Assembly: GCA_022822185.1 (NCBI GenBank)
Contig: JAJECE010000003.1
Location: forward strand, 1-36,522
Length of the DNA: 36,522 bases
Source of the DNA: Rhodothermales bacterium
GTDB taxonomy: Bacteria; Bacteroidota; Rhodothermia; Rhodothermales; Bin80
Reading direction: 5' to 3'
Shown: one piece after another, positions 8,180-27,623 of the stretch
Layout of the letters: the number at the start of each line of letters is the position of its first letter
Numbering within the stretch: position 1 is the stretch's first letter
Position numbers and translations under genes: made by a program
The notes under the pieces: model-generated
Told to the model about the DNA's origin: nothing
The model's input: the letters and a program-made list of their open reading frames with translations, nothing else
The model's database searches: none

Positions 8180-8355
8180 GAAGCTTAAAGACTTTAAACG
8201 ATTGTTTGACGAGAGAAATACTTATGCCCATTCTACTATAGAAGAGTTGCAAGAAAATCACTTCAGAGGGCGAATGTATAAGAATCCGTCGGGATGTACG
8301 CCACCAACAGGACAATATTGATCGCATATTGCGGAGGATAAATGACTCCTCGTAA
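8166..8355 (+). pseudogene. Small frameshifted gene overlapping the methyltransferase end
   Basis: An ATG at 8166 overlaps the methyltransferase stop by 14 bp, an operon-like arrangement. The frame reads MTEPRKLKDFKRLFDERN and continues to about ENHFRG near 8269. It then becomes low-quality and stops at 8319-8321, whereas the next frame takes over with a charged, helical sequence (RIRRDVRHQQDNIDRILRRI) and stops at 8353-8355. Skipping one base in the run around 8265-8271 (agaggg) would join both into about 62 residues. It may be a small controller-like or endonuclease-related protein, or the head of a lost restriction gene; I do not recognise the family. Confidence 0.4.
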
Positions 8356-8381
8356 ATTCATCTGAATACACACATGACCAA

Positions 8382-8779
8382 GAGTCGGTGGGAAGGTATT
8401 ATCGGGGCGGATATTCTGGCGTTTCAGGATAAGGTTGCAATGTATTCGTTCTCAGAAATGTCGCCCGGTTTGCGGTGGATCTGGTTCGCAGTATGCGGCC
8501 CAATTCGGAGGACGCTCTGGAGTTTGTTTCGAACTGGATGAGTTGGGGCGCAGGATTACGGGCCACGCATTACCTCCCTCTTGGGGGCAAATTGTGCGCT
8601 ATACTGCGCGGCCGCTACAACGTTGCTATTGAGAGCATTCACACTTTGGCACCCCCGGTCCTTCGTTACCGCGTCATGACAAATTTCTATGCAGAGAGTG
8701 AGGGATAACGGTTGAGTCCGTCATTGACCGCCTCTTATCAGAGTTGTCCGAGCCCATGAGCGATCTTTCGCAGTGGCAT
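8382..8779 (+). pseudogene. Decayed duplicate of the 3' third of moxR
   Basis: This stretch aligns base for base with 5632-6029 of the intact moxR, including the blocks that encode NSEDALEFVSNW, LRAT(Q/H)Y and TNFYAESEG. Several single-base deletions break the frame: gggggcgg has become ggggcgg near 8405, ggttcgcaatg has become ggttgcaatg near 8435, and gggcataacg has become gggataacg near 8703. The longest intact piece is 8475-8708. Upstream of 8382 there is no trace of the rest of moxR, so it is a partial copy with no ATPase motifs, certainly inactive. It forms a direct repeat of about 400 bp with the true moxR, enclosing the methyltransferase. Confidence 0.9.
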
Positions 8780-8931
8780 ATGTCAAGGACGGTGGCACTC
8801 GTAGTTATTGCTTGACAAAGATGGTCGACAGACTTAAACAGACCAATATTTTATAGAATAGGCAGAGTAGGGAATGTGGAACAATCTCAGGTGCGGCGGT
8901 TCAATCCTGCAGAGTTTAGTCGTAGAGATTA

Positions 8932-10242
8932 ATGGAACTTAGAAGGCTAGACCTTGAGCGATATAAGTGTTTTGACGCAAACACATCGTTTGAAATTGCT
9001 CCGTTAACTATTCTGGTGGGGGCGAATAATTCAGGCAAGACTGCATCGGCGCAAGCCATTCAGTTGGTTTCAAGCAGTTCGGCTTTTCCAAGTAACGACC
9101 GGCGAGAGCCTCTGTTGTTGAACTCCGAGGGGATTACTCATGGGACAATTTTCCAGGATTTAGTCTCCCGACATGCTGCACATGGTCAGTTATCCATGTC
9201 CGCAGTATTTGGAAATGGTAGCGATGAGGACGAATTATCGGTTGAGATTCAGAATGTAGTCAACGCATCCAAACCGTCTGAATCTACAGGGGTGATCAAG
9301 CATTGGAGCCTTCGTAGCCGAGGTAATGAGATTGAAGCAACTCGGGAATCGCTTCACGAAAAGGCTCTTTATCAGATCACTGTCTCTGGTGTTCTTCAAG
9401 ATTTGCAACAGATCAGTTGGGGAGGTCTCCTTCCATCAAGGTCTAATAGATTCCCAGATTGGGCCAATGAGAAAATGGACATGATCAGGGGATGGGCATC
9501 AGGGGTTCGTTACTTAACATGTCCTCGCAGTTTTCCGTCCTTCAATTTTTCAGTGAATAATTTTTCGCCAAGTTTTCACAGCACTACAGGTGCAACGGCA
9601 TCTCTGGAATTTGTTACAGATGATGATCTCCGAGATGCAGTCAGGCAGTGGTACCGAAATGTTTTCGGGGTTCGTCTCAATAAGAACACGAAAGCCGATC
9701 TGTATGATATTACCGTGGGAACACTGGATAATAGCACGAATGTATCTCTTGATCAGTCGGGTGCCGGGTTGTCACAAGTTTTTCCGGTAGCTGTTACCGC
9801 TCTTAAAGCAAGGAGGATGGGGCCGGGAGTTGATATCATTGAACTCCCGGAGGCAGGTCTTCACCCTGCTTTCCAAGCAGATGTTGCCGAACTCTTCGCA
9901 AAGAATCTTCCAGGGTTCAGCAGGCCGGTTATTATTGAGACCCACTCTGAAATGATCCTGCTTCGCATACGACGCTTAATCGCAGAGGGGAAGTTGCCAT
10001 CTGATCATGTAATTGTGTACTGGATCTATAACATGCCAGAATATGGTTCCAGATTACAGCAGATTAAGATCACGGATGAAGGTACAATGAGCAGTTGGCC
10101 GGAGGGGGTGTTCTATGAGGACTATGAAGAGATCCTTGCGATTCGGCGTGCAGTGCGAAGGGATCCACAGCCATCAGAGGTTGGTTCTCCTTCTAACCGT
10201 TCATCAGGTGGGATATCGCCGGCATTTACCGACAACCCATAA
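8932..10242 (+). CDS. AAA/ABC-type ATPase with DUF3696-like C-terminus
   Basis: A 436-residue ATPase of the SMC/OLD-like AAA class. Walker A is VGANNSGKT (lysine 36). The signature region is DQSGAGLSQVFPV. Walker B is VDIIELPEAGLHP (Glu307), and the ETHSE switch is at about 336-340. The tail (residues about 360-405: YWIYNMPEYGSRLQQI, then WPEGVFYEDYEE) fits the DUF3696 module found after this ATPase type. No nuclease domain of its own is visible. Such ATPases are common in phage-defence islands, often as energy-using partners of nucleases. A 256-bp gap with its own promoter separates it from the methyltransferase genes, so it may be a separate unit or a component of the same system. The ATG at 8932 begins right at the conserved first strand. 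Confidence 0.85.
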   Translation: MELRRLDLERYKCFDANTSFEIAPLTILVGANNSGKTASAQAIQLVSSSSAFPSNDRREPLLLNSEGITHGTIFQDLVSRHAAHGQLSMSAVFGNGSDEDELSVEIQNVVNASKPSESTGVIKHWSLRSRGNEIEATRESLHEKALYQITVSGVLQDLQQISWGGLLPSRSNRFPDWANEKMDMIRGWASGVRYLTCPRSFPSFNFSVNNFSPSFHSTTGATASLEFVTDDDLRDAVRQWYRNVFGVRLNKNTKADLYDITVGTLDNSTNVSLDQSGAGLSQVFPVAVTALKARRMGPGVDIIELPEAGLHPAFQADVAELFAKNLPGFSRPVIIETHSEMILLRIRRLIAEGKLPSDHVIVYWIYNMPEYGSRLQQIKITDEGTMSSWPEGVFYEDYEEILAIRRAVRRDPQPSEVGSPSNRSSGGISPAFTDNP

Positions 10243-10441
10243 GCCCCTGACACCAGTGTACGGCGTTCAGGTTATTATTCCCCCAAATTAGATTATCTTT
10301 CCTTGCGTCAGGAATGATTCACGATGATCAGTCAACTTTCTTTAGAAGGTTACGGTATGCCAAAAGAAGTGTCAAATAGGGCTTTTCGGTGCTTGCTTGC
10401 TGGATATCGCTGGATTAACTGCTTTGGTGATCCCTGAATGT

Positions 10442-10473
10442 TTTGTATTTGCACCTCGGATCCGGTACATTTG
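10442..10473 (+). promoter_or_regulatory. Bacteroidota-type promoter ahead of the split methyltransferase genes
   Basis: TTTG at 10442-10445 and TACATTTG at 10466-10473 are separated by 20 bp. This matches the known -33 TTTG / -7 TAnnTTTG promoter of Bacteroidota and its usual spacing. Transcription would begin near 10480, leaving a leader of about 25 nt before the ATG at 10505. It indicates that the methyltransferase/helicase genes are driven separately from the ATPase gene upstream. Confidence 0.55.
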
Positions 10474-10504
10474 ATTCGGGCACAGAACGATTATTTTTTT
10501 GAGC

Positions 10505-11269
10505 ATGAACGCTCCTCTTTTTGATACGATACCCGCTGAGACGGTCCCAACTAAGGATCTGCCTGTTGCCGACAGTAAGCAATCGCATGCGCAGGCTATT
10601 CGGAATCGGGTCAATAACTACCTTGAAACTGCTCTGGAGGAAGATGATTCTCCCATACTGGTACGTGATACAGATCGCGTAGATAATTACGGTGAGGTTT
10701 TCACTCCGCACTGGCTTGTCAAACAGATGCTGGACCACATGCCGGGTGACGTTGTTGCGGATTTGAACAAGTCAGCCCTCGATCCTTCCTGTGGAAACGG
10801 GCAGTTTCTGACCGAGGCACTGCGGCGCAAACTGGTGACCGCTGCCAAACTTTTTGCAGATTCACTGGATCACGAGCAATATCAATTCGACTGTATGCGG
10901 GCTCTATCGATGGTGTACGGGGTTGATATTAACGCAGACACCGCTACCGAGGCACGAGAGCGCATGGCAGCCATCGTTTTTAAAGCGTATGAAGCGGTAG
11001 TCGGGAGTAAACCGGACATTGACTTTGACTGTGCAGTTAAATATATTCTTCAGACCAATATCGTCGTTGGCGACTTTTTGGCGGACGATTATTCTTTGGT
11101 AGAATGGATTCCGCACAGTAAAAACTCATTTGAGCGGAGAGTCTGGCCCGCACAGATCATTTGTTCTAAAAAACATCAGCAGAGTACCCTTTTCCAGGAA
11201 ATGCTGGAACCCTCCAAAATTCTGCCACCTGTGCATTGGAGAGACATTACGGTCAGTAGTGAGAGTTGA
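10505..11269 (+). CDS. N6-adenine methyltransferase-like protein lacking the catalytic NPPY motif
   Basis: A 254-residue protein with an N6-adenine methyltransferase type SAM-binding half. GEVFTPHWLVKQMLDHM leads into motif I, DPSCGNGQF (Asp93), then MVYGVDINADT (motif II) and NIVVGDFLADD (motif III). The catalytic (D/N)PPY of motif IV should follow but is absent: the chain goes to a different ending, HSKNSFERRVWPAQII, and stops. The next gene begins 2 bp after the stop and carries its own FTP/motif I region plus NPPY, so the pair could form a heterodimer in which this chain is regulatory or helps bind DNA or SAM. The ATG at 10505 is chosen over an in-frame TTG two codons upstream. Truncation of a longer enzyme is an alternative, but the tight spacing argues for a functional pair. 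Confidence 0.8.
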   Translation: MNAPLFDTIPAETVPTKDLPVADSKQSHAQAIRNRVNNYLETALEEDDSPILVRDTDRVDNYGEVFTPHWLVKQMLDHMPGDVVADLNKSALDPSCGNGQFLTEALRRKLVTAAKLFADSLDHEQYQFDCMRALSMVYGVDINADTATEARERMAAIVFKAYEAVVGSKPDIDFDCAVKYILQTNIVVGDFLADDYSLVEWIPHSKNSFERRVWPAQIICSKKHQQSTLFQEMLEPSKILPPVHWRDITVSSES

Positions 11270-11271
11270 TT

Positions 11272-12789
11272 ATGCACAGGCCTGACGTACTGGAATGCCT
11301 TGCGAATTTATCCAGTGACGAGGTATTTACGCCGCCGGCATTTGCCAGGGGTATGTTGGACCGTCTACCAGATCGGGTCTGGCGGGATCCCTCGTTGAAG
11401 TGGCTTGATCCATGTACAAAGAGTGGTATTTTTCTCTATGAGGCGGCACAGCGATTAATGGAGGGCCTCAAATCGGAGATCCCCGATTATAGGGATCGTC
11501 GTGAGCACATTTATCGCAATATGCTCTATGGTATTGCGATTTCGGAACTTACGGGACTGATTTCTCGCCGTACCCTATATCACTGCAAGGATGCCAGTCT
11601 CGGGGCATACAGCATCGTCAGGTTTGACAATCCGGAGGGTAACATTCGTTTTCCTGAAGTGCAGTTTGAAGGGAAGGGGGGAAAACGTATTCATTTCGGA
11701 GTGAGCAAGGCAAAGAAGAGGATTGAAGAGGGACGAGAAGCGCACATTCACCCTTTCCTCCACATGAGTTTAAGAAAAATATTCGAAGAAGACAATATGC
11801 ATGCTGATATAATCATAGGCAACCCTCCCTATCAGATGCAGGATGGAGGAGGCACTGGAAAAAGTGCTACTCCGCTCTACAACAGATTTGTAGAAAAGGC
11901 CAAGGAGATAGACCCTGAACTGCTCACCTTTGTCATTCCTGCTCGCTGGTATGCGGGTGGCAAGGGGTTGGACAATTTTCGATCAGAAATGTTATCTGAT
12001 ACAAAAATATCAATTCTGGTAGACTATCCGCGTTCCGGCGATGTGTTTCCAGATGTAGATATTGCGGGAGGAATTTGCTCATTTTTGCGGGATAAAAATC
12101 ACCAAGGGGACTGCTTGGTCCTTCCGAACGGGGAAACCAGAGGAGCAACGCTTCGGAGGCTTGATGCACATCAGGTATTTGTCCGAGATAGTCGAGATGT
12201 TGCGATACTTGAGAAGGTGCTGGCGAAGACGCAGGCGCAAGGATGGGGTGTCATGAGTAGCATTGTGCGGCCAAGGAATTTCTACGGGCTACAAGCACAC
12301 AAACTGCCATCGTCAGTGACGGACGAGCAATCCTCTTCAGAGGCGACAATGCTCGTGACAAAGGATGGCGACAAGTATATCCCAAAAGATGCTGTCAGCA
12401 AAAACGCAGAAACGATCAATCACTGGAAGGTCATCATCTCCAAAACAAATCCCCAAGGTGGAAAAGCTGACAAACAGGGCCTTCGTGTTGTTATTAGCAA
12501 GCCGCGGGTGATTCCCCCGAATAGCGCTTGTACGGAAACGTACCTTGTCATCAATCTCTTTCAGCAGCATGAACCTGCAGGGCGGCTGTTGGATTACGTT
12601 AAATCAAGATTTTTCCGATTTCTCGTATCGCTGAAAACACCGACTCACAACATCTCCCAGACTTGTTTCGGGTTCGTCCCTCAACTACCTTTAGATCGTA
12701 ATTGGACGGATGAGATTTTGTATGAGCTCTTTGAACTAGAGAGTTCAGAGATTGCGCATATTGAGAGCAAGATTAAGCCGATCAATTGA
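11272..12789 (+). CDS. Eco57I-type N6-adenine DNA methyltransferase
   Basis: A 505-residue adenine methyltransferase. DEVFTPPAFARGML near the start, motif I-like DPCTKSGIF (Asp46) and catalytic NPPYQ (Asn184-Tyr187, preceded by ADIIIG) define the family. FVIPARWYAGGKGLDNFR and the later ISKPRVIPPNSACTETY region match the downstream part of Eco57I-type and related fused methyltransferases, where sequence recognition usually lies. It should methylate adenine at N6 in a specific DNA site. It starts 2 bp after the NPPY-less partner (a GAGAG stretch 6 bp before the ATG may be the ribosome site; an in-frame TTG lies two codons earlier). The helicase-nuclease gene follows after 131 bp. Together they look like a restriction-modification set; the recognition sequence is unknown. 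Confidence 0.87.
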   Translation: MHRPDVLECLANLSSDEVFTPPAFARGMLDRLPDRVWRDPSLKWLDPCTKSGIFLYEAAQRLMEGLKSEIPDYRDRREHIYRNMLYGIAISELTGLISRRTLYHCKDASLGAYSIVRFDNPEGNIRFPEVQFEGKGGKRIHFGVSKAKKRIEEGREAHIHPFLHMSLRKIFEEDNMHADIIIGNPPYQMQDGGGTGKSATPLYNRFVEKAKEIDPELLTFVIPARWYAGGKGLDNFRSEMLSDTKISILVDYPRSGDVFPDVDIAGGICSFLRDKNHQGDCLVLPNGETRGATLRRLDAHQVFVRDSRDVAILEKVLAKTQAQGWGVMSSIVRPRNFYGLQAHKLPSSVTDEQSSSEATMLVTKDGDKYIPKDAVSKNAETINHWKVIISKTNPQGGKADKQGLRVVISKPRVIPPNSACTETYLVINLFQQHEPAGRLLDYVKSRFFRFLVSLKTPTHNISQTCFGFVPQLPLDRNWTDEILYELFELESSEIAHIESKIKPIN

Positions 12790-12920
12790 AATTGTGACGC
12801 ACGACCTTGCAAATTTTTCCAAGTTAAGTCAGTAGCGATAACCGATGACGGGCAAGAACTAATGAGACGGCAGTGCCTCACATGGAACAAAAATTTGGCT
12901 ATTGAACCGGAGATTTTTAG

Positions 12921-15335
12921 GTGATGGGTAGAAGTAATACAGACCAAGCTCCCAAAATCTATGCATACACCTACGGGGAGTATTGTGAGAAAATATGGGA
13001 GCACCGCAGTGGCGGCCATGGATGGATGAAGGTGGGCTATACCGAGAAAGATGTTGCCCAGCGCGTCAAAGAACAAACGAGGGGCAGCGTTCCCGGTGAA
13101 GTGAAGCTGTTATGGGAAGAGGATGCGATATCTGATCATGGCCAGCCATTCAAAGATAACGAAGTACATAAGCGGTTGATCAAGAATGGTGCGCATAAAG
13201 TACACAATGAATGGTTTGAGGCAACTCTGGATGAACTAAAAATTGCAATTGCAGAGATCAAACAAGGCCGCAGAGTAGCCGCACCGGAGAATTTTGAAAT
13301 GCGCCCCGAACAGAGTGAAGCCGTGGAGCAGACAGCGGCTTACTTCCGAGGGCAGGTGGAGGATCAGGCCAGACGGTTCCTCTGGAATGCAAAAATGCGA
13401 TTCGGGAAGACATTTGCCTCCTATCAATTGGCCCTTGAAATGGGCTGGACGAAGTTGCTAATCCTCACTTACAAACCCGCGGTGGAGGATTCCTGGAGGG
13501 ATGATTTGGAGCGGCATCAGGATTTTGAGGGTTGGCAATTTATTGGCAAGGGAGAAGGCTTCGGCAGTATTGATGAGTCGGCTCCATACGTATGGATGGC
13601 CTCGTTTCAGGATATGATGCAGCGTACTGTGGAGGGGGAAATAAAAGACCGTCACGAGTTAATCTACGTCATTGAATGGGACTGCATCATTATTGATGAA
13701 TATCACTTCGGTGCCTGGCGAAGTAATGCAAAAGAGCTTTATGAATCTGACAAGTCTGATGAGGAAGCAGAGTTCATGGACGACTATGATCCTGATAGAT
13801 CGCTGAGGGAGGATTTTTCAATTATCGGTGCACACAGGCTCTACCTGTCGGGTACCCCATTTAGGGCATTGGCCGAGGGCGAGTTCGGTGAAGATCAGAT
13901 ATACAACTGGACGTATGCGGATGAGCAGAAGGCCAAACAGGCATGGCAGGGAGAACCCGATGAAGAGAATCCATATTCTCCCTTACCGCAGTTGAAGATA
14001 TTCACCTATAAGATCAGCGATGCGACCCGGTCTCATGCGGAGGCTACATTCGATGATGAATTCAGCCTGAATGGTTTCTTTCAGGCGAAATATCAGGACA
14101 GAATCCCAAGATTCAGCAGAGAAAATGATGTGCAGAAGTGGCTGGACTGGCTGCATAAGCGGGTAAAGATCACCGAACAGAACGATCACCCAGGGCCCCT
14201 TGCCGATCCCAAACTCCGTAGTTCCCTGCATCATACTGTATGGCATCTTCCTGATGTAGCATCCTGCAGAGCGATGGAAAGGCTCCTTAAGGAACCCCAG
14301 AATTTCTATTTTAACGAGTACAAAATTATTTGTGCAGCAGGAGCGAGGGCAGGTGTAGGGATTAAAGCATTGGGGCCTGTGCGAAATGCAATTGGTGATG
14401 GTTCACGCACGAAAACCATTACCCTAACATGTGGAAAGCTGTTAACCGGGGTTACCGTACCTCAATGGAGTGCAATCTTTATGCTTCGGGATACAAAATC
14501 CGCCGAAACCTATTTTCAGGCCGCATTTCGGGTTCAATCGCCTTGGACTCGTTCCGTAGACAGTAACCCAAAGATCCAAGAGATCCTCAAGCGGGAGGCA
14601 TTTGTGTTTGATTTTGCGCAAAACCGTGCACTGGAAATGGTATACGGATTCTGTGCAAAACAGGTCAATGCAAAGGGGGACGGTAATGTGAAAGCCGAGG
14701 TAGGTGAATTTCTGAACTTTCTCCCCATTCTGGCATACGAGGACGGCAAATTAGTTAAACTGAACGCAACAGATCTGATGGATAAAGCAACATCCGGGGT
14801 TGGCTCTGTGATGCTGGCCAAGCGGTGGCAGTCATCCCGCATGATTAATCTGAGTCGTGCTGCATTGGAGGGAATTCTGAACAATGAAGATCTTCTGAAG
14901 TCACTGGAGAATATGGAGGCCTTTCGCGCTTTGCGGAAGCATACCTCGGAAATACTGATATCGGAAAAAGCCATAAGGAAGGCCAAGGCAGAAGGCAAGA
15001 AAAAATCCACGGTTAGCAGTGAGAAAAGGGAGATGGCGAAACGCCGCAAAAAAATCCAGGAAGCTCTCCTGAAGTTTTTGACCAGAGTTCCCATTTTTAT
15101 GTACCTGACGGACTACAGAGAGGAGAGTCTCGTCGATGTGATTCGTAATGTAGAGCCGGCCCTTTTCACGAAGGTCACAGGATTGAAAATTGGAGATTTT
15201 GATGCTCTGTGCAAACTGGGTGTATTTAACACGCAGATATTGAATCAGGCAATCTATGCCTTCAAGCGTCAGGAGCATTTCAGTTTAACGGGTGGAAGAG
15301 TGTCGCAGGGACAAGAGGAGATGGGCAATGATTAA
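12921..15335 (+). CDS. GIY-YIG (T5orf172-like) nuclease fused to SF2 helicase
   Basis: An 804-residue protein. Residues about 10-115 match T5orf172/MUG113-type GIY-YIG nucleases: KIYAYTY, then WMKVGYT with arginine in AQRVKEQ, glutamate in DNEVHKRL and a closing NEWFEA. From about 130 it is a superfamily 2 helicase: NAKMRFGKT (Walker A, lysine 163), IIIDEYHFG (DEYH box, Asp259-His262), LYLSGTPF (motif III), and in the second RecA lobe TCGKLLTGVTVPQW and ETYFQAAFRVQSP (motifs V-VI). The last 150 residues are lysine-rich and helical. The natural reading is a restriction subunit that translocates on DNA and cuts with the GIY-YIG domain. It begins with GTG at 12921, 8 bp after GGAG; an ATG lies one codon on. 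It follows the methyltransferase genes on the same strand. Confidence 0.87.
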   Translation: MMGRSNTDQAPKIYAYTYGEYCEKIWEHRSGGHGWMKVGYTEKDVAQRVKEQTRGSVPGEVKLLWEEDAISDHGQPFKDNEVHKRLIKNGAHKVHNEWFEATLDELKIAIAEIKQGRRVAAPENFEMRPEQSEAVEQTAAYFRGQVEDQARRFLWNAKMRFGKTFASYQLALEMGWTKLLILTYKPAVEDSWRDDLERHQDFEGWQFIGKGEGFGSIDESAPYVWMASFQDMMQRTVEGEIKDRHELIYVIEWDCIIIDEYHFGAWRSNAKELYESDKSDEEAEFMDDYDPDRSLREDFSIIGAHRLYLSGTPFRALAEGEFGEDQIYNWTYADEQKAKQAWQGEPDEENPYSPLPQLKIFTYKISDATRSHAEATFDDEFSLNGFFQAKYQDRIPRFSRENDVQKWLDWLHKRVKITEQNDHPGPLADPKLRSSLHHTVWHLPDVASCRAMERLLKEPQNFYFNEYKIICAAGARAGVGIKALGPVRNAIGDGSRTKTITLTCGKLLTGVTVPQWSAIFMLRDTKSAETYFQAAFRVQSPWTRSVDSNPKIQEILKREAFVFDFAQNRALEMVYGFCAKQVNAKGDGNVKAEVGEFLNFLPILAYEDGKLVKLNATDLMDKATSGVGSVMLAKRWQSSRMINLSRAALEGILNNEDLLKSLENMEAFRALRKHTSEILISEKAIRKAKAEGKKKSTVSSEKREMAKRRKKIQEALLKFLTRVPIFMYLTDYREESLVDVIRNVEPALFTKVTGLKIGDFDALCKLGVFNTQILNQAIYAFKRQEHFSLTGGRVSQGQEEMGND

Positions 15336-15799
15336 AGGGAATGACGAGATCCGTTCCAAATCATACTTTTTCTCCGAGAGCATGGATGTCCTTGAGTAGT
15401 TGCACTAGATATACGTGTTCAAACTTATAGTTGTACATGTTTTCCGAAATCTTGTAAGCGAAGTCAGCCACTTATCTAACAGTACATGTATTTTTTATCA
15501 ATGGCACTTAAGGTTTTTGTCATGAGGAGTGTGCGTGACTAAATCAGTATTTAGAAAATCACCTTCTTTGCCGCCCCAAGTGCTCAGTAGATATCACATT
15601 AAAGAGGGCTGAAATCAATGATCGGTTTAGTTAAGAAAATCCATCATAGGTAACAGAGCATCTTGCAAAACTCTCGATCTTGAAGATTTTTGTTCACCTG
15701 AGTGCACCCAGGAGCGCTTTTCACCTAGATTATTAGTTTTGCAAAAATCTCAACATAGTCGATTTTTTGCGAAGTCCGATCTTGTAACAAGTTCTTTCT
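15336..15799. other. A/T-rich spacer between the helicase gene and the convergent TIR gene
   Basis: No convincing gene. A 23-codon frame (15328-15399, ATG overlapping the helicase stop, ending SESMDVLE) could be the head of a lost downstream gene. Two related imperfect inverted repeats occur, around 15664-15694 and 15741-15770, both built on GCAAAA...TTTTTG; the second is annotated as a likely terminator. The palindromic string GTACAT also occurs twice, near 15433 and 15482. Confidence 0.5.
15741..15770 (-). terminator. Hairpin downstream of the Fic-TIR unit
   Basis: GCAAAAATC at 15741-15749 pairs with GATTTTTTGC at 15761-15770 across an 11-base loop, about 30 bp past the TIR gene stop. The A/T-rich arms themselves supply a T-run, so it could end transcription from either side of this convergent junction. 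The stem is low in G/C, so strength is uncertain. Confidence 0.4.
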
Positions 15800-16660
15800 C
15801 TAGAATTTGTCTTCATAGGATTGAAAATTACCAGAACCTTCAATTTCAATAGCATACCGAAACCGCAACTCGTCTGAATCATTTTCCCGTGTATCATCCT
15901 TGATGTCAAGGATTTGGAGCGCAGCGTAAAATCCATGTATGTTCTGTAAAACTACAATCTGATTCAATTGAGGGGTTCGGGCGCGTGAGGTGTAGTCTAG
16001 TTCTTCTGCCGCAGAAATTTCGTGGATAAAGGTTTCGTTTTTGGCCAAAGCAACACCGTGGATAGAATCGGGATCATTATAGATATGTATGGAGCCGTTA
16101 CTTGCCTTTGACCATTGTGTCTCAAATTTGGTGGTACCAGATCCGATAGTGTACCGGCCATTAAAGTTGCTGTAATCAAAAACAACTTCCCCGACTTGAG
16201 ATGTCATTCTTGGATGCGGGATATCTGAAGCTTTTTCGGCACGCGGGTCCATCCCAATTTTTTCGGCTATGATAGTTGCGAGCTCTGCCGGGGTACACTC
16301 TTGGGCTTTGAGGTACATAATTGATTCTGGTAGCCCAGGAACCGGTGTGTCGTCAAAACGCACTGGAATGACATATTCTGAAGTTTCTCTGGATGCACGT
16401 TCAAGTATAATCTGTCTCTCGTGTGTTGGCCAACGTTTTTTCACATAGTCAGAGGAAATAAACATTACTGCGAAGGTTGACATTTCCCCGAATATTTTTT
16501 CAAATATTTCTAAGCCGTCATGTCCCCAAAGCCATGTTTGTTCATATCCATCGTAAAAAACGGGGATAGACCTTTTTGAGAGATGATGAGCTACTTCTTC
16601 AACATAATCTCGCTGCTCTCCAGCGAACGACAATGCTACTTGGAATGTTTTATTGGTCAT
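15800..16660 (-). CDS. TIR domain protein with C-terminal putative sensor domain
   Basis: A 286-residue protein. Residues 5-140 form a bacterial TIR domain: VALSFAGEQRDYVEEVAHHL (first strand and helix), PVFYDGYE (second strand), FISSDYVKKRWPTHE with a WxxxE motif whose Glu81 is the likely catalytic glutamate, and VIPVRFDDTPVPGL. Bacterial TIR domains of this class cleave NAD+ or make nucleotide signals from it, usually to stop phage infection by abortive growth arrest. Residues about 155-286 are a beta-rich domain (FDYSNFNGRYTIGSG, SIHIYNDPDS, QIVVLQNIHGFYAAL, LQILDIKDDTREND). I recall this as a recurrent partner of TIR domains, but its ligand is unknown. It lies 37 bp downstream of the Fic gene on the same strand, so the two are probably co-transcribed. 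Confidence 0.88.
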   Translation of the reverse strand: MTNKTFQVALSFAGEQRDYVEEVAHHLSKRSIPVFYDGYEQTWLWGHDGLEIFEKIFGEMSTFAVMFISSDYVKKRWPTHERQIILERASRETSEYVIPVRFDDTPVPGLPESIMYLKAQECTPAELATIIAEKIGMDPRAEKASDIPHPRMTSQVGEVVFDYSNFNGRYTIGSGTTKFETQWSKASNGSIHIYNDPDSIHGVALAKNETFIHEISAAEELDYTSRARTPQLNQIVVLQNIHGFYAALQILDIKDDTRENDSDELRFRYAIEIEGSGNFQSYEDKF

Positions 16661-16697
16661 TAGTTTGGAAGATCATATGATGAGATGTTTGGAATTT

Positions 16698-17810
16698 TTA
16701 GGTTGCACACAGAATATCTAATAGATCGGGGAAAGCATACAAGGCAGGCCGACGACCACTCCCTGCGCTCATTTGCTGCAAGATTCCATGCTCACAAAGC
16801 GTTGCCAATAGCCTGTGGGCGGTGCTTGAGGGGATTTTTGTTTGATCGCTGAAATGACCCATATTGAATACTGGGCATGAGAATACAGCCTCCATGACCT
16901 GGGGATCGTATCTGGTGCGCATCAGTTGCTCCATGCGTGTTTCAATTTTGTGATATAGCTTCTGTATTCTCTTTACCAACGAATGCGAGTATATGGATTG
17001 CTCCCTAACAGCATCCAGAAAAAAACTGCACCAGCCAGTCCAATCGTCGTCTCTTGACACAGCCAGTAGCCGGTCATAGTATTCACGATGATGCGCTACA
17101 AGCCATTGGCTAATAAAGAAAACTGGTTCGTGAATCAGGCCGGATTGCCACATGGACAGCGGTATGATCAAGCGGCCGACTCGCCCATTACCATCCTCAA
17201 ATGGGTGCAGTGCTTCAAATTCTGCGTGCATGATTGCACTCTGCACAAGCCGGTCTTGCACATGAGCAGACTGATAATCGTCCCATTGTCGAATTGACTG
17301 TTCGAGATTTTCGGGCGCAATGGGAATATATCTCATGTCATGGATGGTGCCTCCTGGAGGCCCTATGTAATTCTGGCATGTTCGAAATTTTCCAGGCGAC
17401 TTATCTCGGCCACGAACGCTGTTCATTAAATCAGAGTGTGCAGACTTAACAATATCCATAGACAGTCTACACGATTCCTCATGCATTGATGTGGCTGCGT
17501 GATTGAGTGCTTCACGGCAGTTCAATATCTCCTGTATATTATCCAGCAATACGGTCGAGGCGGGGAGGTGACCGCCTTCAAACTTCATCACATCTATTGA
17601 TGACGCATAGATACCCTCAATGTGGGAGGAATGAACTGCCTCATTCAATTGCAAATGGCCCAGAAAGAGTTTAGAGTTAGGTGCATCGGACAATAACTGA
17701 TCAAATTTGGCAAGGGCCATATAGGCGGGGCCGATTTTTGGGATCAAGGTTGACCAGTTGATTCTGTCATCTGGCGGGAATGCTTCAAAACGATAATGAG
17801 CGGGCGGCAT
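16698..17810 (-). CDS. Fic family protein (AMP-transferase) with winged helix C-terminus
   Basis: A 370-residue Fic protein. The catalytic motif HPFEDGNGRVGR is intact at 202-213. SSHIEG at 61-66 is the N-terminal inhibitory motif ([S/T]xxxE[G/N]), making it a class II Fic protein that holds itself inactive until a partner or ligand frees it. Residues about 305-370 look like a winged helix-turn-helix (SDQTKIPSSTAHRLLATLCEHGIL), seen in many chromosomal Fic proteins and suited to autoregulation. Fic enzymes usually transfer AMP from ATP to a hydroxyl side chain of a target protein; the target here is unknown. The ATG at 17810 is preferred to a TTG at 17822. It is the first gene of a two-gene unit with the TIR gene, directly beside a 70-bp repeat array. 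Confidence 0.9.
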   Translation of the reverse strand: MPPAHYRFEAFPPDDRINWSTLIPKIGPAYMALAKFDQLLSDAPNSKLFLGHLQLNEAVHSSHIEGIYASSIDVMKFEGGHLPASTVLLDNIQEILNCREALNHAATSMHEESCRLSMDIVKSAHSDLMNSVRGRDKSPGKFRTCQNYIGPPGGTIHDMRYIPIAPENLEQSIRQWDDYQSAHVQDRLVQSAIMHAEFEALHPFEDGNGRVGRLIIPLSMWQSGLIHEPVFFISQWLVAHHREYYDRLLAVSRDDDWTGWCSFFLDAVREQSIYSHSLVKRIQKLYHKIETRMEQLMRTRYDPQVMEAVFSCPVFNMGHFSDQTKIPSSTAHRLLATLCEHGILQQMSAGSGRRPALYAFPDLLDILCAT

Positions 17811-17860
17811 ACAAGCAAGCAAAAAACGATTCTAATGCCGTGTACTGAAAACGAGGTCTT

Positions 17861-18075
17861 TATGTTCCAGATTTCGGTATTTTTGGGGAGAAAGCGAGTT
17901 TGTAACCCGTGGACGGGAAGCAAAGTAGTTAATGTTCCATATTTTGTCATTTTCGGGAAGCAAGTGAGTTTATATCCCGTGGACGGGAAGCAAAGTAGTT
18001 AATGTTCCATATTTTGTCATTTTCGGGAAGCAAGTGAGTTTGTATCCCGTGGACGGGAAGCAAAGCAGTTCGCGT
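17861..18075. repeat. Three tandem copies of a 70-bp repeat upstream of the Fic gene
   Basis: GGACGGGAAG recurs at 17911, 17981 and 18051, exactly 70 bp apart, and the sequence between is almost fully conserved in the last two copies (the first is more diverged). Each copy has the perfect inverted repeat CCCGTGGACGGG and two uses of CGGGAAGCAA, 30 and 40 bp apart, so the unit is itself a diverged doublet. As both 'repeat' and 'spacer' parts are conserved, this is not a CRISPR array. The array starts 50 bp upstream of the Fic ATG (minus strand), so it overlaps the likely promoter region and could bind a regulator such as the Fic winged helix, or make a structured RNA. Confidence 0.9.
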
Positions 18076-21516: not shown

Positions 21517-24500
21517 TTATTTCAGCAGCGTCATCATCTTGACGGCTCTCTGCTGCTGGGTTTGCAGAACATAAAGATACGTGTCATTGGCGAGGCCCGA
21601 CCCGGAAAACAGCACGCTATGGCGACCGGCAGGCTGCACACCGTCCAGCAGTGTCTGCACCTTCTGCCCCAGAAGATCATACACGGTGAGTGTAACCTGC
21701 CCCGTCCGGGTCAGCGAAAATTCAATGGCGGTAGACGGATTGAATGGGTTCGGATAATTCTGCTCCAGCGAAAAGTCTGCAGGAACCTCTTCCCCTAAAG
21801 GTGCTATGGAGGTTCTTTTGTCTTCATCTGTCGTCGCGGTAACGACCATGGAGGGCGTGCTGAGCCCAGCCGCATTCCTGGCTAAGATCCGGTAATGGCG
21901 TGTGGAACCAGGGGGCAGCTGTGTATGACGATAACTGGTGGTGGTGACATCCTCCGCCAGTTTCTGCCAGATTGTCCCGGCATCCTCGGATACATCAACC
22001 TGATAGCCGGTGACGGCGGATCCGCCGTCCTCCAGGGGAGCGGACCAGGACAGGCTAATCGCATCTTGTCCATCCGCCTGTGCTTCTACATTCACCGGCA
22101 CCCCAGGTGCGCTCACGAGGATTACGGTGGTTGCATGGGCCACATTGGACGGATCACCTGCACCAACCGAATTGATGGCTCGAATGCGATAATGATGGGT
22201 TGATCCTGGTTGCAGGCCGGTGTGGGTATAGGTTGTGGTTGTAGTTTCTGTGTCTGCGACCAAATCGGCCCAGGTCTCTCCTGCATCCGCAGACCCCTCA
22301 ATCTGATACCCGCTGATGGTGGCTCCGCCGTCATCCACCGGGGCCGTCCAGGAAAGATTGATTTCGGTTTCTCCCGAAACTGAAGCAGTGAGTTTTGTGG
22401 GGGCATCGGGAACCGAGAGCGCATCCGTGGTCGCATTGGCCACATTGGAGGGATCGGCACTTTCGCCAACGGAATTGATGGCATAGACGCGGTAATGGCG
22501 TGTTGCGCTTTCGGGAAGTCCAGTATGCGTGTAGGTCGTTGCACTGCTTTCGGTGTTCGCCGCCAGATCGGACCAGTTTGAACCTGCATCGGGAGATGTC
22601 TCAATGCGATACCCGGTGATGGCCGTTCCACCATTGTTAGCGGGAGCCGTCCAGAAAAGATGAATCTGGGTTCGTCCTGAAGCCGTTGCGGTTAATTCTG
22701 CAGGGGCACCGGGCCGGGTTATTGCAGCCCCCGTGGTTGCATTGGCCACATTGGAAGGATCACTCGCTCCAATGGAATTGATGGCATAGACGCGGTAATG
22801 GCGCGTTGCGCCTTCGGGAATCCCTGTGTGGGTATAGGTTGTTGCACTGCTTTCTGTGTTCGCCACCAGATCGGACCAGTTTGCACCTGCATCGGTGGAC
22901 ATTTCAATTTGATATCCTGTAACCGTGGCCCCGCCGTCATTCGAGGGTACAGCCCAGGAAAGAACGATGCTGGTTTGCCCCGAAGCGGTCGCAGCCAATC
23001 CCGTGGGGGCATCCGGCACCGATGCCGCATCGGTAGTCGCATTGTCTATATTGGAAGGATTGCCCGTGCCGGCAGAATTGATGGCAGAGATGCGGTAATG
23101 ATAGGTGGTTCCAGGCAGAAGTCCGGTGTGGGTATAGGTCGTTGATGTCGTTCCCGTATTCGCCACCAGATCGGACCAATCTGAACCTGCATCGGCGGAC
23201 AGTTCAATTTGATATCCCGTAATTGCGCCCCCGCCATCATCGGAGGGAGCCGTCCAGGAGAGATTGATTGCGGTGCGTCCTGAAGCGGTTGCAGTTAAGC
23301 CGGTAGGGGCATCCGGTGCCGATGCAGCATCGGTCGTTGCATGGTCTACATTGGACGGATTGCCAGTCCCAACCGAATTGATGGCAGAGATGCGGTAATG
23401 ATAGGTCGTTGCGGCCAGAAGTCCGGTGTGGGTATAGGTCGTTGATGTCGTTCCCGTATTTGCCATCAGGTCAGACCAGTTTGAACCTGCATTGGTGGAC
23501 AGTTCAATTTGATATCCCGTAATTGTGGCCCCGCCATCATCAGAGGGAGCCGTCCAGGAGAGACTGATTGCAGTGCGTCCCGAAGCGGTTGCGCTTAGCC
23601 CAGTGGGTGCATCCGGCTGAGTTGCTGTACCTGCGGTTGTAGCATTATCTACATTGGAGGGATTGCCCGTTCCGGCAGAATTGATGGCGAAAACCCGGTA
23701 ATGATAGGTCGTTCCCGGCGTAAGCCCCGTATGCTCGTAGGCGGTCGCCGTACTTTCTGTATCATCCTCCTGCTCGGACCAGGTCGTTCCTGCATTGGTG
23801 GATGTTTCAATCCGGTATCCCGTAATCGCCGCTCCGCCGTTATTGGAGGGAGCGGTCCAGGAAAGATTAATCTGGGTGCGTCCTGATGCCGTTGCACTTA
23901 GCCCAGTGGGTGCACCTGGCTGAGTTGCTGTACTCGTGGTTGCATTATCTACATTGGAGGGAGTACCTGTACCAGCAGAATTGATGGCGGAAACCCGGTA
24001 ATGATAGGTCGTTCCCGGCGTAAGCCCCGTATGCTCGTAGGCGGTCGCTGTACTTTCTGTATCATCCTCCTGCTCGGACCAGGTCGTTCCTGCATTGGTG
24101 GATGTTTCAATCCGGTATCCCGTAATCGTGGCTCCGCCGTTATTGGAGGGAGCGGTCCAGGAAAGATTAATCTGGGTGCGCCCCGAAGCGGATGCACTCA
24201 GCCCGGTGGGTGCATCCGGCTGAGTTGCTGCACTCGTGGTTGCATGGTCTGCATTGGAGGGAGTACCTGTCCCAACCGAATTGATGGCGGAAACCCGGTA
24301 ATGATAGGTCGTTCCCGGCGTAAGCCCCGTGTGCTCGTAGGCGGTCACTGTACTTTCTGTATCATTCTCCTGTTCGGACCAGGTTGTCCCTGCATTGGTG
24401 GATGTCTCAATCCGGTATCCCGTGATCGCCGCTCCGCCGTTATTGGAGGGAGCAGTCCAGGAAAGATTAATCTGGGTGCGCCCCTGCACCTGAGCATCTA

Positions 24501-25866
24501 GACCGGTAGGTGCCTGTGGAGCAGATAGAGCTTCTGTAGTTGCATTATCCACAGTCGAGGGAGTCACTGTTGAGGATGACTTGTTTGCTGATACCCGGTA
24601 ATGATAGGTGGTTCCCGGCGTAAGCCCCGTGTGCTCGTAGGCGGTCGCTGTACTTACTGTGTTACCATCCTGCTCGGACCAGCTCGTCCCTGCATTGGTG
24701 GATGTTTCAATCCGATACCCCGTGATCGCCGCTCCGCCGTTATCCAAGGGAGCGGTCCAGGAAAGATTAATCTGGGTGCGCCCCTGTACCTGGGCATCTA
24801 GACCGGTAGGTGCCTGCGGAGCAGATATAGCCTCTGTAGTTGCATGATCTACAGTCGAGGAAGTACTTGTTCCAGCAGAATTGATGGCGGAAACCCGGTA
24901 ATGATAGGTCGTCCCCGGCGTAAGCCCCGTGTGCTCGTAGGCGGTCGCTGTACTTTCTGTATCATCCTCCTGTTCGGACCAGGTTGTCCCTGCATTGGTG
25001 GATGTTTCAATCCGATACCCCGTGATCGCCGCTCCGCCGTTCTCCAAGGGAGCGGTCCAGGAAAGATTAATCTGGGTGCGCCCCGAAGCGGTTGCACTTA
25101 GCCCAGTGGGCGCATCCGGCTGAGTTGCTGTACCTGTGGTTGCATGATCTACATTGGAGGGATTGCCCGTGCCAGCAGAGTTGATGGCGGAAACCCGGTA
25201 ATGATAGGTGGTTCCCGGCGTAAGCCCCGTATGCTCGTAGGCGGTCGCTGTACTTTCTGTATCATCCTCCTGCTCGGACCAGGTTGTCCCTGCATTGGCG
25301 GATGTTTCAATCCGATACCCCGTAATCGCCGCTCCGCCGTCATCCGAGGGAGCGGTCCAGGAAAGATTAACCTGAGTGGATCCTGAAAGGGTTGCGGTTA
25401 ATCCCGTCGGTGCTACCGGTGCGGATAGAGCCTTCGTGGTTACACTGATTTGAACATGACTACCTCGCCGCCCCTTTCCATTGACCGACTTGATACGGTA
25501 ACTATACCCTGTTCCAGGGGAGAGATTCCGATGAGTATAGGATGTGCTAGTGTGTAGATTTTGCACAACGTTCCAAAAATTTCCTTTCCGTATCTGAATC
25601 TGATAACCAGCAATCCATGATGAGTTACCAGTATTGGTGGGAGCATTCCAGGAAAGAGTGATTTGACGGTGTCCTGCCTTGGATGTTACATTTGTGGGCT
25701 TACCAGGATTTTGTGCGAATGCCTCAACGGGAGAAATGAATATGACCAAGAGCAGTAAGCCTATACTGCCGAGCCTCCTGGAAAAATGGGGGGGGGGGGG
25801 GGAAATTACAAGGGTAAAGGGGAATCGATGACTCATTCGAGTGGTTGAATTACAAGGTTTCCGCAT
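21517..25866 (-). CDS. Secreted protein with 13 fibronectin type III domains and C-terminal sorting domain
   Basis: A 1449-residue surface or secreted protein. A long n-region is followed by a hydrophobic core (about 34-46, GSIGLLLLVIFIS) and a cleavage-like EAFAQ at 49-52. Thirteen fibronectin type III domains follow, each opening with a variant of (A/D)APTGLxAxxSGRTQINLSW and closing with GTTYHYRVSAINSxGT. Domains 3-8 are nearly identical. The last 85 residues (LEQNYPNPFNPSTAIEFSL ... ALK-type end VKMMTLLK) are a type IX secretion-type sorting domain. The probable role is adhesion or binding of surface glycans or proteins; no catalytic domain is present. The start is ATG 25866 or the in-frame ATG 25836. 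A run of 15 C in the coding strand, codons 23-26, lies between start and signal peptide, so length changes there would switch the gene off or on. It stands alone, facing the permease gene. Confidence 0.9.
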   Translation of the reverse strand: MRKPCNSTTRMSHRFPFTLVISPPPPHFSRRLGSIGLLLLVIFISPVEAFAQNPGKPTNVTSKAGHRQITLSWNAPTNTGNSSWIAGYQIQIRKGNFWNVVQNLHTSTSYTHRNLSPGTGYSYRIKSVNGKGRRGSHVQISVTTKALSAPVAPTGLTATLSGSTQVNLSWTAPSDDGGAAITGYRIETSANAGTTWSEQEDDTESTATAYEHTGLTPGTTYHYRVSAINSAGTGNPSNVDHATTGTATQPDAPTGLSATASGRTQINLSWTAPLENGGAAITGYRIETSTNAGTTWSEQEDDTESTATAYEHTGLTPGTTYHYRVSAINSAGTSTSSTVDHATTEAISAPQAPTGLDAQVQGRTQINLSWTAPLDNGGAAITGYRIETSTNAGTSWSEQDGNTVSTATAYEHTGLTPGTTYHYRVSANKSSSTVTPSTVDNATTEALSAPQAPTGLDAQVQGRTQINLSWTAPSNNGGAAITGYRIETSTNAGTTWSEQENDTESTVTAYEHTGLTPGTTYHYRVSAINSVGTGTPSNADHATTSAATQPDAPTGLSASASGRTQINLSWTAPSNNGGATITGYRIETSTNAGTTWSEQEDDTESTATAYEHTGLTPGTTYHYRVSAINSAGTGTPSNVDNATTSTATQPGAPTGLSATASGRTQINLSWTAPSNNGGAAITGYRIETSTNAGTTWSEQEDDTESTATAYEHTGLTPGTTYHYRVFAINSAGTGNPSNVDNATTAGTATQPDAPTGLSATASGRTAISLSWTAPSDDGGATITGYQIELSTNAGSNWSDLMANTGTTSTTYTHTGLLAATTYHYRISAINSVGTGNPSNVDHATTDAASAPDAPTGLTATASGRTAINLSWTAPSDDGGGAITGYQIELSADAGSDWSDLVANTGTTSTTYTHTGLLPGTTYHYRISAINSAGTGNPSNIDNATTDAASVPDAPTGLAATASGQTSIVLSWAVPSNDGGATVTGYQIEMSTDAGANWSDLVANTESSATTYTHTGIPEGATRHYRVYAINSIGASDPSNVANATTGAAITRPGAPAELTATASGRTQIHLFWTAPANNGGTAITGYRIETSPDAGSNWSDLAANTESSATTYTHTGLPESATRHYRVYAINSVGESADPSNVANATTDALSVPDAPTKLTASVSGETEINLSWTAPVDDGGATISGYQIEGSADAGETWADLVADTETTTTTYTHTGLQPGSTHHYRIRAINSVGAGDPSNVAHATTVILVSAPGVPVNVEAQADGQDAISLSWSAPLEDGGSAVTGYQVDVSEDAGTIWQKLAEDVTTTSYRHTQLPPGSTRHYRILARNAAGLSTPSMVVTATTDEDKRTSIAPLGEEVPADFSLEQNYPNPFNPSTAIEFSLTRTGQVTLTVYDLLGQKVQTLLDGVQPAGRHSVLFSGSGLANDTYLYVLQTQQQRAVKMMTLLK
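23641..25440. repeat. Six tandem 300-bp repeats inside the fibronectin gene
   Basis: The same sentence of DNA (ATGATAGGT(C/G)GTTCCCGGCG) begins at 23701, 24001, 24301, 24601, 24901 and 25201, exactly 300 bp apart, each unit coding one 100-residue fibronectin domain. Identity is high even at third codon positions, so copying or gene conversion is recent. Units either side are more diverged, with a 3-bp offset between array and left-hand neighbours. Copy number changes by recombination would keep the frame. Confidence 0.92.
25788..25802. repeat. G15/C15 homopolymer near the 5' end of the fibronectin gene
   Basis: Fifteen consecutive G on the plus strand, read as C15 by the minus-strand gene and coding Pro-Pro-Pro-Pro within ISPPPPHF. 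At 15 the frame is open; a change of one base shifts it before the signal peptide. Tracts of this length slip readily in replication, and they are also error-prone in sequencing and assembly. On the coding strand AGGAGG follows 10 bp later, a possible internal ribosome site. Confidence 0.9.
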
Positions 25867-26247
25867 AGCCTAAATGTGTATGGTAAAATACTAATTGCGA
25901 ATAGATCAAATATACTATAAACGCGCCACATCTAGAGATTTTTGAAGCCATCCAGTGCGCCTCGGCAAAACCTCAAGGGGCGTATTTGAGAACTGAAACA
26001 GACCTCCATCCCTCAAAGAAACCCGTGAAACCAGAAATAGGTTCCATTTGGACACGCTCGCATAGTGCTGCTTCATCGGCCTTCAATCCCGATATGTATC
26101 GGCAGTTATAATCCCCGACGGGAGCTGATCTGAATGATACACTTTGTCTTGATCTGCAGAAGAATTACGGATAGTAAGGTTTCCCTGCAATGCAGGTCAG
26201 TAAGTGATGCAGATGCAATCTGATCTGTACGGCCGGAGTCATATCTC
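25867..26247. other. Intergenic stretch upstream of the fibronectin gene
   Basis: No gene seen on either strand. It should contain the promoter of the fibronectin gene and the end of the large minus-strand operon. An odd palindrome CCTGCAATGCAGG is at 26184-26196, about 50 bp past the last operon stop; its loop is too small for a standard terminator, so it could be a protein-binding site. Confidence 0.5.
25907..25914 (-). promoter_or_regulatory. Candidate -7 box of the fibronectin gene
   Basis: On the minus strand the bases read TATATTTG, a match to the Bacteroidota TAnnTTTG box, 41 bp before ATG 25866. No TTTG is found at the usual distance upstream, so only half the promoter is supported. 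Confidence 0.3.
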
Positions 26248-27612
26248 TTAGATAGTAACCCGCTCGCCCTGAGCCGGAGTCAGGATGCGGGCTCCGGGGC
26301 AGTGTTCCTTAAGGTTTTTTTTCAGCCAGCACTTGGCCTCCGTTTCTCCGTGCACCAGGATGATCGTTCTGGGCTGAAGCTTTGCGGCCAGAGCGGTGAG
26401 TTCTCTGCGATGCGCATGCCCGCTGAAACGAAAACGATCCACCTCGCATCCAATCGGCTGCATCCCGCGGTCCGGGTTGAGCAGGATTCCCTCCGCGCCA
26501 CTCTGTGCAGCGTGAAGGAGCTTCCCCGCGGGCAGATCATCCTTGCTGAATCCGACAAAGAAGATGGCATGTTTCTCATGTTCAAGAAGGTCAACAGCAA
26601 CCTGATGTGACAGCGTACGCTCAATCATCATCCCGCTGGTCAGCACATGAATTCCCGGCTGATTCATCACGCGATTCCGGGCTTTGCGCGTCCATGGAAA
26701 TCGCTTCTGCTCCACCGAGTAGACCTCAAAATCCGGATCAATCCGGGGAGAGGAAAAGCGGTAGTCATCGTAGATCCGCGAAACCTCACGCAGACCTCCC
26801 GCTGTATAGACGGGAGTATCAGGGTCAATCAGGTTCTGCATCTTGAAGCGCCCAAGGAGGGCAAGGATTTCCTGGGCACGACCCAGCATGAATACCGGCA
26901 GAAGTACGGTTCCGCCCCGATCCAGAACCGCGGCAAGCCGCTGTGAAAATCGGACTTCTTCCTCGGCGCGTGTGATGGTTTCGGCAATCGGATCTGCACC
27001 AAGCGTAGACTCCATAATGAGGACATCAATCGGTGCAGAGGGGTATTCCGCTCCGGGAATAATGGTTTGCGCCTCCGTTCGGGTGTCACTGGTATAACAG
27101 ATCCGACGCTGATCCGCAGTCGTGAGCAGTACTCCCGCAGATCCCAGGAGATGCCCGGAATAGTAGAACTTTGCTCGCAGATGCCCGCCCCTCAGATCAA
27201 TCCACTCATCATACTCGTGGGCATGGAGTACATCAAAGACATCCTCCAGATCCCCTTCGTCAAATAAGGCACGGAACGCAGAGGAACCCTCGTCGTACTT
27301 CCGCCTTTGAAGCCGGGCGGACGCGTACAGCATAAGCGTGGTTAAGGTTCGCGTTGCAGGGGTCAGGTGCAATCGGGCCCTCGGCCATTTTGCATTCAGT
27401 GCCGGGATGCCGCCGATATGATCGTGGTGCGCATGCGTGATGAATACATGCTCAACATTGCGGTGTTCAATGGGAGAAAAATCCGGCAGCGAGGCAGGGC
27501 CTTCTTCATTGGGATCGGCACCCGCGTCCAGAATAATCCCGCTGCCGCTTACCTCGAGATAGTGGCAGCTTGCACCGATATCGTTGGCTCTGCCAAGCGA
27601 AATAAAATCCAT
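26248..27612 (-). CDS. Metallo-beta-lactamase/beta-CASP/RMMBL exonuclease-like protein
   Basis: A 454-residue protein of the CPSF73/RNase J-like beta-CASP group. Metal-binding HAHHDH is at 60-65. SGHLLGSAG and YTSDTRTE follow, then the beta-CASP insertion (about 205-330), VLTSGMMIERTLS, FSGHAHRREL and the C-terminal IILVHGETEA of the RMMBL segment. Members process or degrade RNA, or are nucleic-acid hydrolases of unclear target. The start is ATG 27612; a GTG two codons earlier is possible. It is the last gene of a five-gene minus-strand operon, 11 bp after the aldolase stop. The cellular role cannot be settled from sequence. Confidence 0.9.
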   Translation of the reverse strand: MDFISLGRANDIGASCHYLEVSGSGIILDAGADPNEEGPASLPDFSPIEHRNVEHVFITHAHHDHIGGIPALNAKWPRARLHLTPATRTLTTLMLYASARLQRRKYDEGSSAFRALFDEGDLEDVFDVLHAHEYDEWIDLRGGHLRAKFYYSGHLLGSAGVLLTTADQRRICYTSDTRTEAQTIIPGAEYPSAPIDVLIMESTLGADPIAETITRAEEEVRFSQRLAAVLDRGGTVLLPVFMLGRAQEILALLGRFKMQNLIDPDTPVYTAGGLREVSRIYDDYRFSSPRIDPDFEVYSVEQKRFPWTRKARNRVMNQPGIHVLTSGMMIERTLSHQVAVDLLEHEKHAIFFVGFSKDDLPAGKLLHAAQSGAEGILLNPDRGMQPIGCEVDRFRFSGHAHRRELTALAAKLQPRTIILVHGETEAKCWLKKNLKEHCPGARILTPAQGERVTI

Positions 27613-27623
27613 ATACACGGGGC

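Follow-up and report, generated by a model that had tools for sequence, protein, structure and literature searches.

The 36,522-nucleotide stretch analysed here (the window; contig JAJECE010000003.1 of a Rhodothermales bacterium) carries a gene for a protein with 13 fibronectin type III (FN3) domains. Within the 5' end of that gene lies a run of 15 identical bases which is very probably an ON/OFF contingency switch, operating by slipped-strand mispairing and toggling export of a protein sorted by the type IX secretion system (T9SS). The window is the entire contig C89 of a draft genome of 3.71 Mb that is 98.8% complete, referred to below as G000; the related genome with which it was compared is G003, and L-numbers denote individual loci. 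The tract occupies a position in coding sequence at which its length decides the reading frame, this length differs between genomes, relatives of the gene occur in both ON and OFF states with intact frames, and the tract belongs to a motif that recurs at other loci. Reversible switching within one population would alter what is displayed at the surface, and may matter when the bacterium meets a sponge host or phages.

The tract, its reading frame and the protein

The gene lies on the minus strand, and the coding strand therefore shows C15 where the forward strand shows G15. The features concerned are:

25788–25802, minus strand: proposed slippage switch, reading C15 in the coding strand and G15 in the plus strand, residues 22–27 (S-PPPP-H)
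21517–25866, minus strand: FN3 gene, open reading frame of 1449 aa and ON in the assembly; the product has a long n-region containing the tract, a putative signal peptide and 13 FN3 domains, and it ends in a sorting tail of T9SS type A
25864–25866, minus strand: first in-frame ATG 5' of the tract (M1), retained in relatives L125, L126, L128 and L067
25831–25833, minus strand: second in-frame ATG (M12), 34 nt ahead of the tract, its frame matching the ATG of divergent members (MQFNHS..FPFNLVI / MSHRFPFNLVI)
25714–25833, minus strand: putative signal peptide including the tract, MSHRFPFTLVISPPPPHFSRRLGSIGLLLLVIFISPVEAFA followed by QN, read from sequence
21538–21756, minus strand: TIGR04183 match (NCBIfam; 26.0 bits, curated cut-off 23), a T9SS type A sorting domain at the C terminus

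In the protein, which includes the stretch FPFTLVISPPPPHF, the tract sits between MSHRFPFTLVI and FSRRLGSIGLLLLVIFISPVEAFA (followed by QN); in the 4.35-kb gene it falls at the 5' end, 34 nt past the start of M12 and approximately 64–67 nt past that of M1. The initial annotation had placed the tract in coding sequence between the start codon and the signal peptide, and its coordinates proved exact, with both candidate ATGs lying 5' of the tract and sharing one frame. When the frames were recomputed, C15 was ON while C13, C14, C16 and C17 were off, bearing out the earlier argument that slippage by one base closes the FN3 frame whereas slippage by three leaves it open. The same annotation had raised the possibility that the true start lies downstream of the tract, which we examined without finding a usable codon: between the tract and the end of the signal peptide the window gene has no in-frame ATG or GTG, the sole in-frame TTG past the tract falls within the hydrophobic core, and no in-frame Met follows until far into the FN3 array.

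The segment SRRLGSIGLLLLVIFISPVEAFA, followed by Q, looks like an N-terminal signal peptide as read from the sequence. Pfam finds 13 fn3 stretches in the open reading frame, the number counted in the initial annotation. The Pfam model of the sorting domain (PF18962) scores under its cut-off (22.2 versus 27), and the genome encodes the T9SS outer-membrane protein SprA (1678 bits, cut-off 200). The G15 run is the only run of at least 14 G in the 3.71-Mb genome, and Markov models of order 1–3 predict just 0.004–0.026 runs of at least 15 G per genome. Runs of at least nine G are not in excess, with 38 in the genome compared to 20–53 expected under the same models.

We propose that slipped-strand mispairing during replication would add or remove C:G pairs. 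Where the length fits (C12, C18 or, as found here, C15), translation that begins at the upstream ATG would continue across the tract and on to the signal peptide. The FN3 protein, being in frame, would then be exported and undergo sorting by the T9SS; at other lengths a short out-of-frame peptide would be made and the surface protein would be absent.

Tract length in a related genome

Synteny with a relative is anchored by the upstream neighbour of the FN3 gene:

26248–27618, minus strand: beta-CASP metallo-beta-lactamase

With this neighbour protein as query, a scan picked out a protein of 96% identity in the genome of Rhodothermales bacterium isolate jk18xAbins.42 (JAJECV010000029.1), which we take to be G003. 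The adjoining 10.3 kb in G003 (L100/L125) are 96.4% identical, and a gene of like type carries a C9 tract at the equivalent site. Read from the homologous ATG, this orthologue (L125) is OFF at C9 and would be ON at C7 or C10, and its frame past the tract is open for 633 codons, up to the contig end. Length differs in five of the six orthologous tract pairs (G000/G003: window/L125 15/9, L066/L124 11/16, L156/L116 10/14, L155/L117 7/9, L162/L118 10/9 and mod1/L123 9/9), the flanks being 87–96% identical; between these close relatives, tract length is more variable than the DNA around it. G003 is taken to be sponge-derived because a study of Ircinia sponges (PMC9531527) uses the jk18x bin names, and by kinship the host of the window's genome is likely a sponge as well.

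ON and OFF members of the FN3 family

Counting the window gene, G000 and G003 together hold 15 related genes with a tract between an upstream ATG and the signal peptide, and FN3 or Ig-like architecture is found in other members. Four are ON and 11 OFF, near the one in three expected from random frame; the states of this family and of the MKHITK family described below are those read from the homologous ATG. In most OFF members the frame past the tract stays open for hundreds of codons, up to 1,319 (543–1319 in this genome), including 1319 codons in L070, 1295 in L066, at least 1175 in L154 and at least 801 in L162, while L067 has merely 175 codons downstream of the tract. In random sequence, 1000 codons in a row would lack a stop with a probability of approximately 1e-20. 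The position of the start codon has moved within the family: divergent members begin MQFNHS..FPFNLVI, and in the window's group the older ATG has been lost and MSHRFPFNLVI is used, with the frame into the tract unchanged. The layout is that of a phase-variable adhesin, as the initial annotation had recognised, and a switch gains support from an orthologue that is OFF at C9 versus ON at C15, from the other orthologous tracts that differ and from ON and OFF relatives with intact frames.

A recurrent motif at unrelated loci

On the forward strand the tract forms part of a longer element:

25782–25802, plus strand: switch motif AAAAAT-G(n), common to unrelated loci of the genome and the genus

The context A5-7-T-G9+ is present at most tract loci, in unrelated genes and in both orientations. 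AAAAATG9 occurs 16 times in this genome compared to 0.01–0.03 expected (Markov), with no occurrence of the reversed control, and genus-wide the base between AAAAA and G9 is T in 63 cases and A in five. Among runs of at least five G in G000, 16 of 29 following AAAAAT reach nine, versus one of 11 following AAAAAA or AAAAAC (Fisher p 0.012). The motif gives G or C on the coding strand, in various frames, and the constraint is therefore on DNA rather than on protein.

Three ideas on how the tracts arose or slip were rejected. Insertion of a mobile switch cassette does not fit the comparison of a tract-free Mod homologue (L176, AATGGAGTAGTT) with the tract-bearing Mod (AATGGGGGGGGGGTAGTT), which is longer by just 6 nt with the neighbouring residues aligned; here the tract therefore grew in place. 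Common descent of a single 5' cassette holds for the FN3 and MKHITK families but fails for the Mod, type ISP and autotransporter-like genes, whose sequence in common with the other loci amounts to only about 20 bp. The idea that slippage results from a loss of MutS is at odds with the presence of mutS1 in 10 of 10 genomes of the genus. We raise tentatively, and consider unlikely, that A5-7-T-G9+ is a dedicated hypermutable element, in which the A-run and T would be required for tracts to arise and to switch via replication, repair or a lineage-specific factor; unrelated genes would have been recruited successively to one shared mutational switch, and a trans-acting mechanism would recognise the motif.

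Other tract loci

The initial annotation had treated the tract as a single-gene case. What it said of the gene stands, but the tract is one of about 20 such loci in the genome, the majority of them in genes for surface proteins or DNA-modifying enzymes, which include FN3 adhesins, a tandem type III restriction-modification locus, a type ISP enzyme and autotransporter-like proteins, and thus DNA methyltransferases as well as surface proteins.

The type III locus (L060:4521-11300; G000 contig C79:20520-27300) consists of tandem genes mod1 (G9, OFF) and mod2 (G10, ON, 636 aa) followed by one res-like gene. Profile matches are to TypeIII_RM_meth and N6_N4_Mtase, and the res-like helicase frame was recognised from its own sequence. 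The Mod tract falls about 175 codons in, right before the DNLLIKGNNLL region. From this arrangement, mod1-mod2-res is a candidate two-specificity phasevarion.

In the type ISP restriction-modification enzyme (L158:1279-3059, L122:2672-6940, L129, L165, L168) a G-tract lies in the C-terminal specificity domain, at about Pfam positions 181–185. The enzyme is OFF in genomes G000, G006 and G009 and ON in G003 and G002, and a second type ISP enzyme (L131) has its tract at another place. Two autotransporter-like proteins, the larger of which has Calx-beta-like repeats as judged from its sequence, carry the tract close to where the C-terminal domain begins, and each of the two is in frame.

A multi-copy secreted family beginning MKHITK..NSLLTLLALL (L007, L022, L025, L031, L054, L121), with several copies at contig ends, has the tract in the n-region of the signal peptide. 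Here the A-run differs too, A4 being OFF and A5 ON with G9 in both, such that a one-base change in the A-run flips the frame. At least two other genera of the same taxonomic family carry the motif in reading frames (L174, which is ON, and L173). The latter (L173:1005-2985) is a leucine-rich-repeat protein with the motif ahead of a signal-peptide-like stretch, and this type of switch therefore extends beyond the genus. At L065:4229-4244 (G000 C22:47229) an AAAAATG10 motif was found from which no open frame of at least 60 codons continues, possibly placing it between genes.

Other features of the window

A possible promoter element lies upstream of the FN3 gene:

25907–25914, minus strand: possible -7 element TATATTTG (TAnnTTTG), a weak lead, retained as TAAATTTG in L067 and L128

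We take TAnnTTTG to be the Bacteroidota-type -7 consensus. A search of the window against Rfam returned no structured-RNA match. Positions 6938–17822 hold a C5-methyltransferase-like frame, an Eco57I-type methylase, a T5orf172 protein, a TIR-domain protein and a Fic protein, likely a defence-type cluster, and a tandem array (17862–18070; period 70 bp, 3 copies, 91% matches) separates the Fic gene from an amino-acid permease.

Weighing the explanations

Several points weigh against a contingency switch. The evidence is a comparison between genomes, from which switching within a population is inferred. The nearest relative is a separate genome with flanks about 96% identical, in which length differences could have accrued slowly, and draft short-read assemblies may miscount long homopolymers. 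Since MutS1 is present in all ten genomes of the genus, slippage is not aided by its loss. Divergent family members also offer more than one upstream ATG, and some ON/OFF states depend on the choice.

Among the alternatives, we regard as improbable ribosomal or transcriptional slippage on the tract, whereby every allele would give mixed products and length would set the level of expression rather than an ON/OFF state. In principle, adjoining runs of A and G are prone to slippage, and leaky expression would also account for intact OFF genes, but the length variation among orthologues would be left unexplained, and the tracts occur in both OFF frames rather than in one fixed -1 or +1 layout.

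It is very improbable that a homopolymer has simply been drifting slowly within a dispensable family, with old neutral length changes and OFF copies that are pseudogenes. That the differences are seen only between genomes, that many members are out of frame and that L067 is so short downstream are all as drift would predict; however, it accounts poorly for the long intact frames of most OFF members, and for tracts retained inside conserved enzymes such as the type III Mod and type ISP proteins.

There is very little likelihood that the lengths are sequencing or assembly artefacts of homopolymers. The genomes are draft metagenome assemblies and many tracts lie near contig ends, yet orthologues differ by 4–6 bases with flanks 93–96% identical, identical motif contexts number 16 against none of the reversed controls, and most tracts are just 9–10 bases long. 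A start downstream of the tract, leaving it in a 5' leader where it would at most tune expression, is exceedingly improbable: AGGAGG stands right after the tract, followed by ATA, but is not conserved in the orthologue L125 or in divergent paralogues, whereas the same-frame upstream ATG is preserved across the family despite its shifted position, and the codons available past the tract are those described above.

We therefore favour a contingency switch. The gene belongs to a set of about 20 loci, and since many of these code for FN3-type surface proteins or DNA methyltransferases, a symbiont population in which they switch at random would be expected to form a mosaic in surface and methylation state, whose members would meet host cells and phages differently. 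Contact of the FN3 protein with sponge cells is plausible, since Ircinia metagenomes are enriched in eukaryotic-like domains that include FN3 (PMC9531527). If true, phase variation would be carried over from pathogens to an ancient animal symbiosis, which is testable in existing sponge metagenome reads, and one short motif finds such genes automatically.

Relation to known systems

Eukaryotic-like FN3 proteins are enriched in the metagenomes of sponge symbionts from Ircinia (PMC9531527). Our genome likewise encodes FN3 surface-type proteins, but phase variation goes unmentioned in that study, and a literature search of partial coverage found no paper linking phase variation, in the sense meant here, to sponge symbionts.

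Homopolymer contingency loci have been described in host-adapted bacteria, including sabA and pldA of H. pylori and genes of N. meningitidis (PMC2715451, PMC2831843, PMC5084427). As in those systems, a one-base change closes the frame and there are many loci per genome. However, known examples come mainly from cultured pathogens, while those described here belong to an uncultured Rhodothermales genus, involve T9SS-sorted FN3 proteins, occur with mutS1 present and share one stereotyped A5-7-T-G9+ context at most loci.

Type III Mod phasevarions are represented by ModA, ModH and ModS (PMC11475388, PMC6265453). L060 resembles them as a type III mod with a repeat in the open reading frame, one of two copies in frame and res adjoining, but differs in that the tract is about 175 codons in and two tandem mod genes share one res. 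The type IIG restriction-modification enzyme of C. jejuni is also phase-variable (PMC4889913) and is likewise a large restriction-modification polypeptide with a repeat, although the enzyme here is of type ISP and its tract lies within the C-terminal specificity domain. Homopolymer phase variation within open reading frames, phasevarions and phase-variable restriction-modification enzymes are thus well known (PMC2831843, PMC11475388, PMC4889913); what is new is the lineage, the set of loci, the FN3/T9SS targets and the stereotyped motif.
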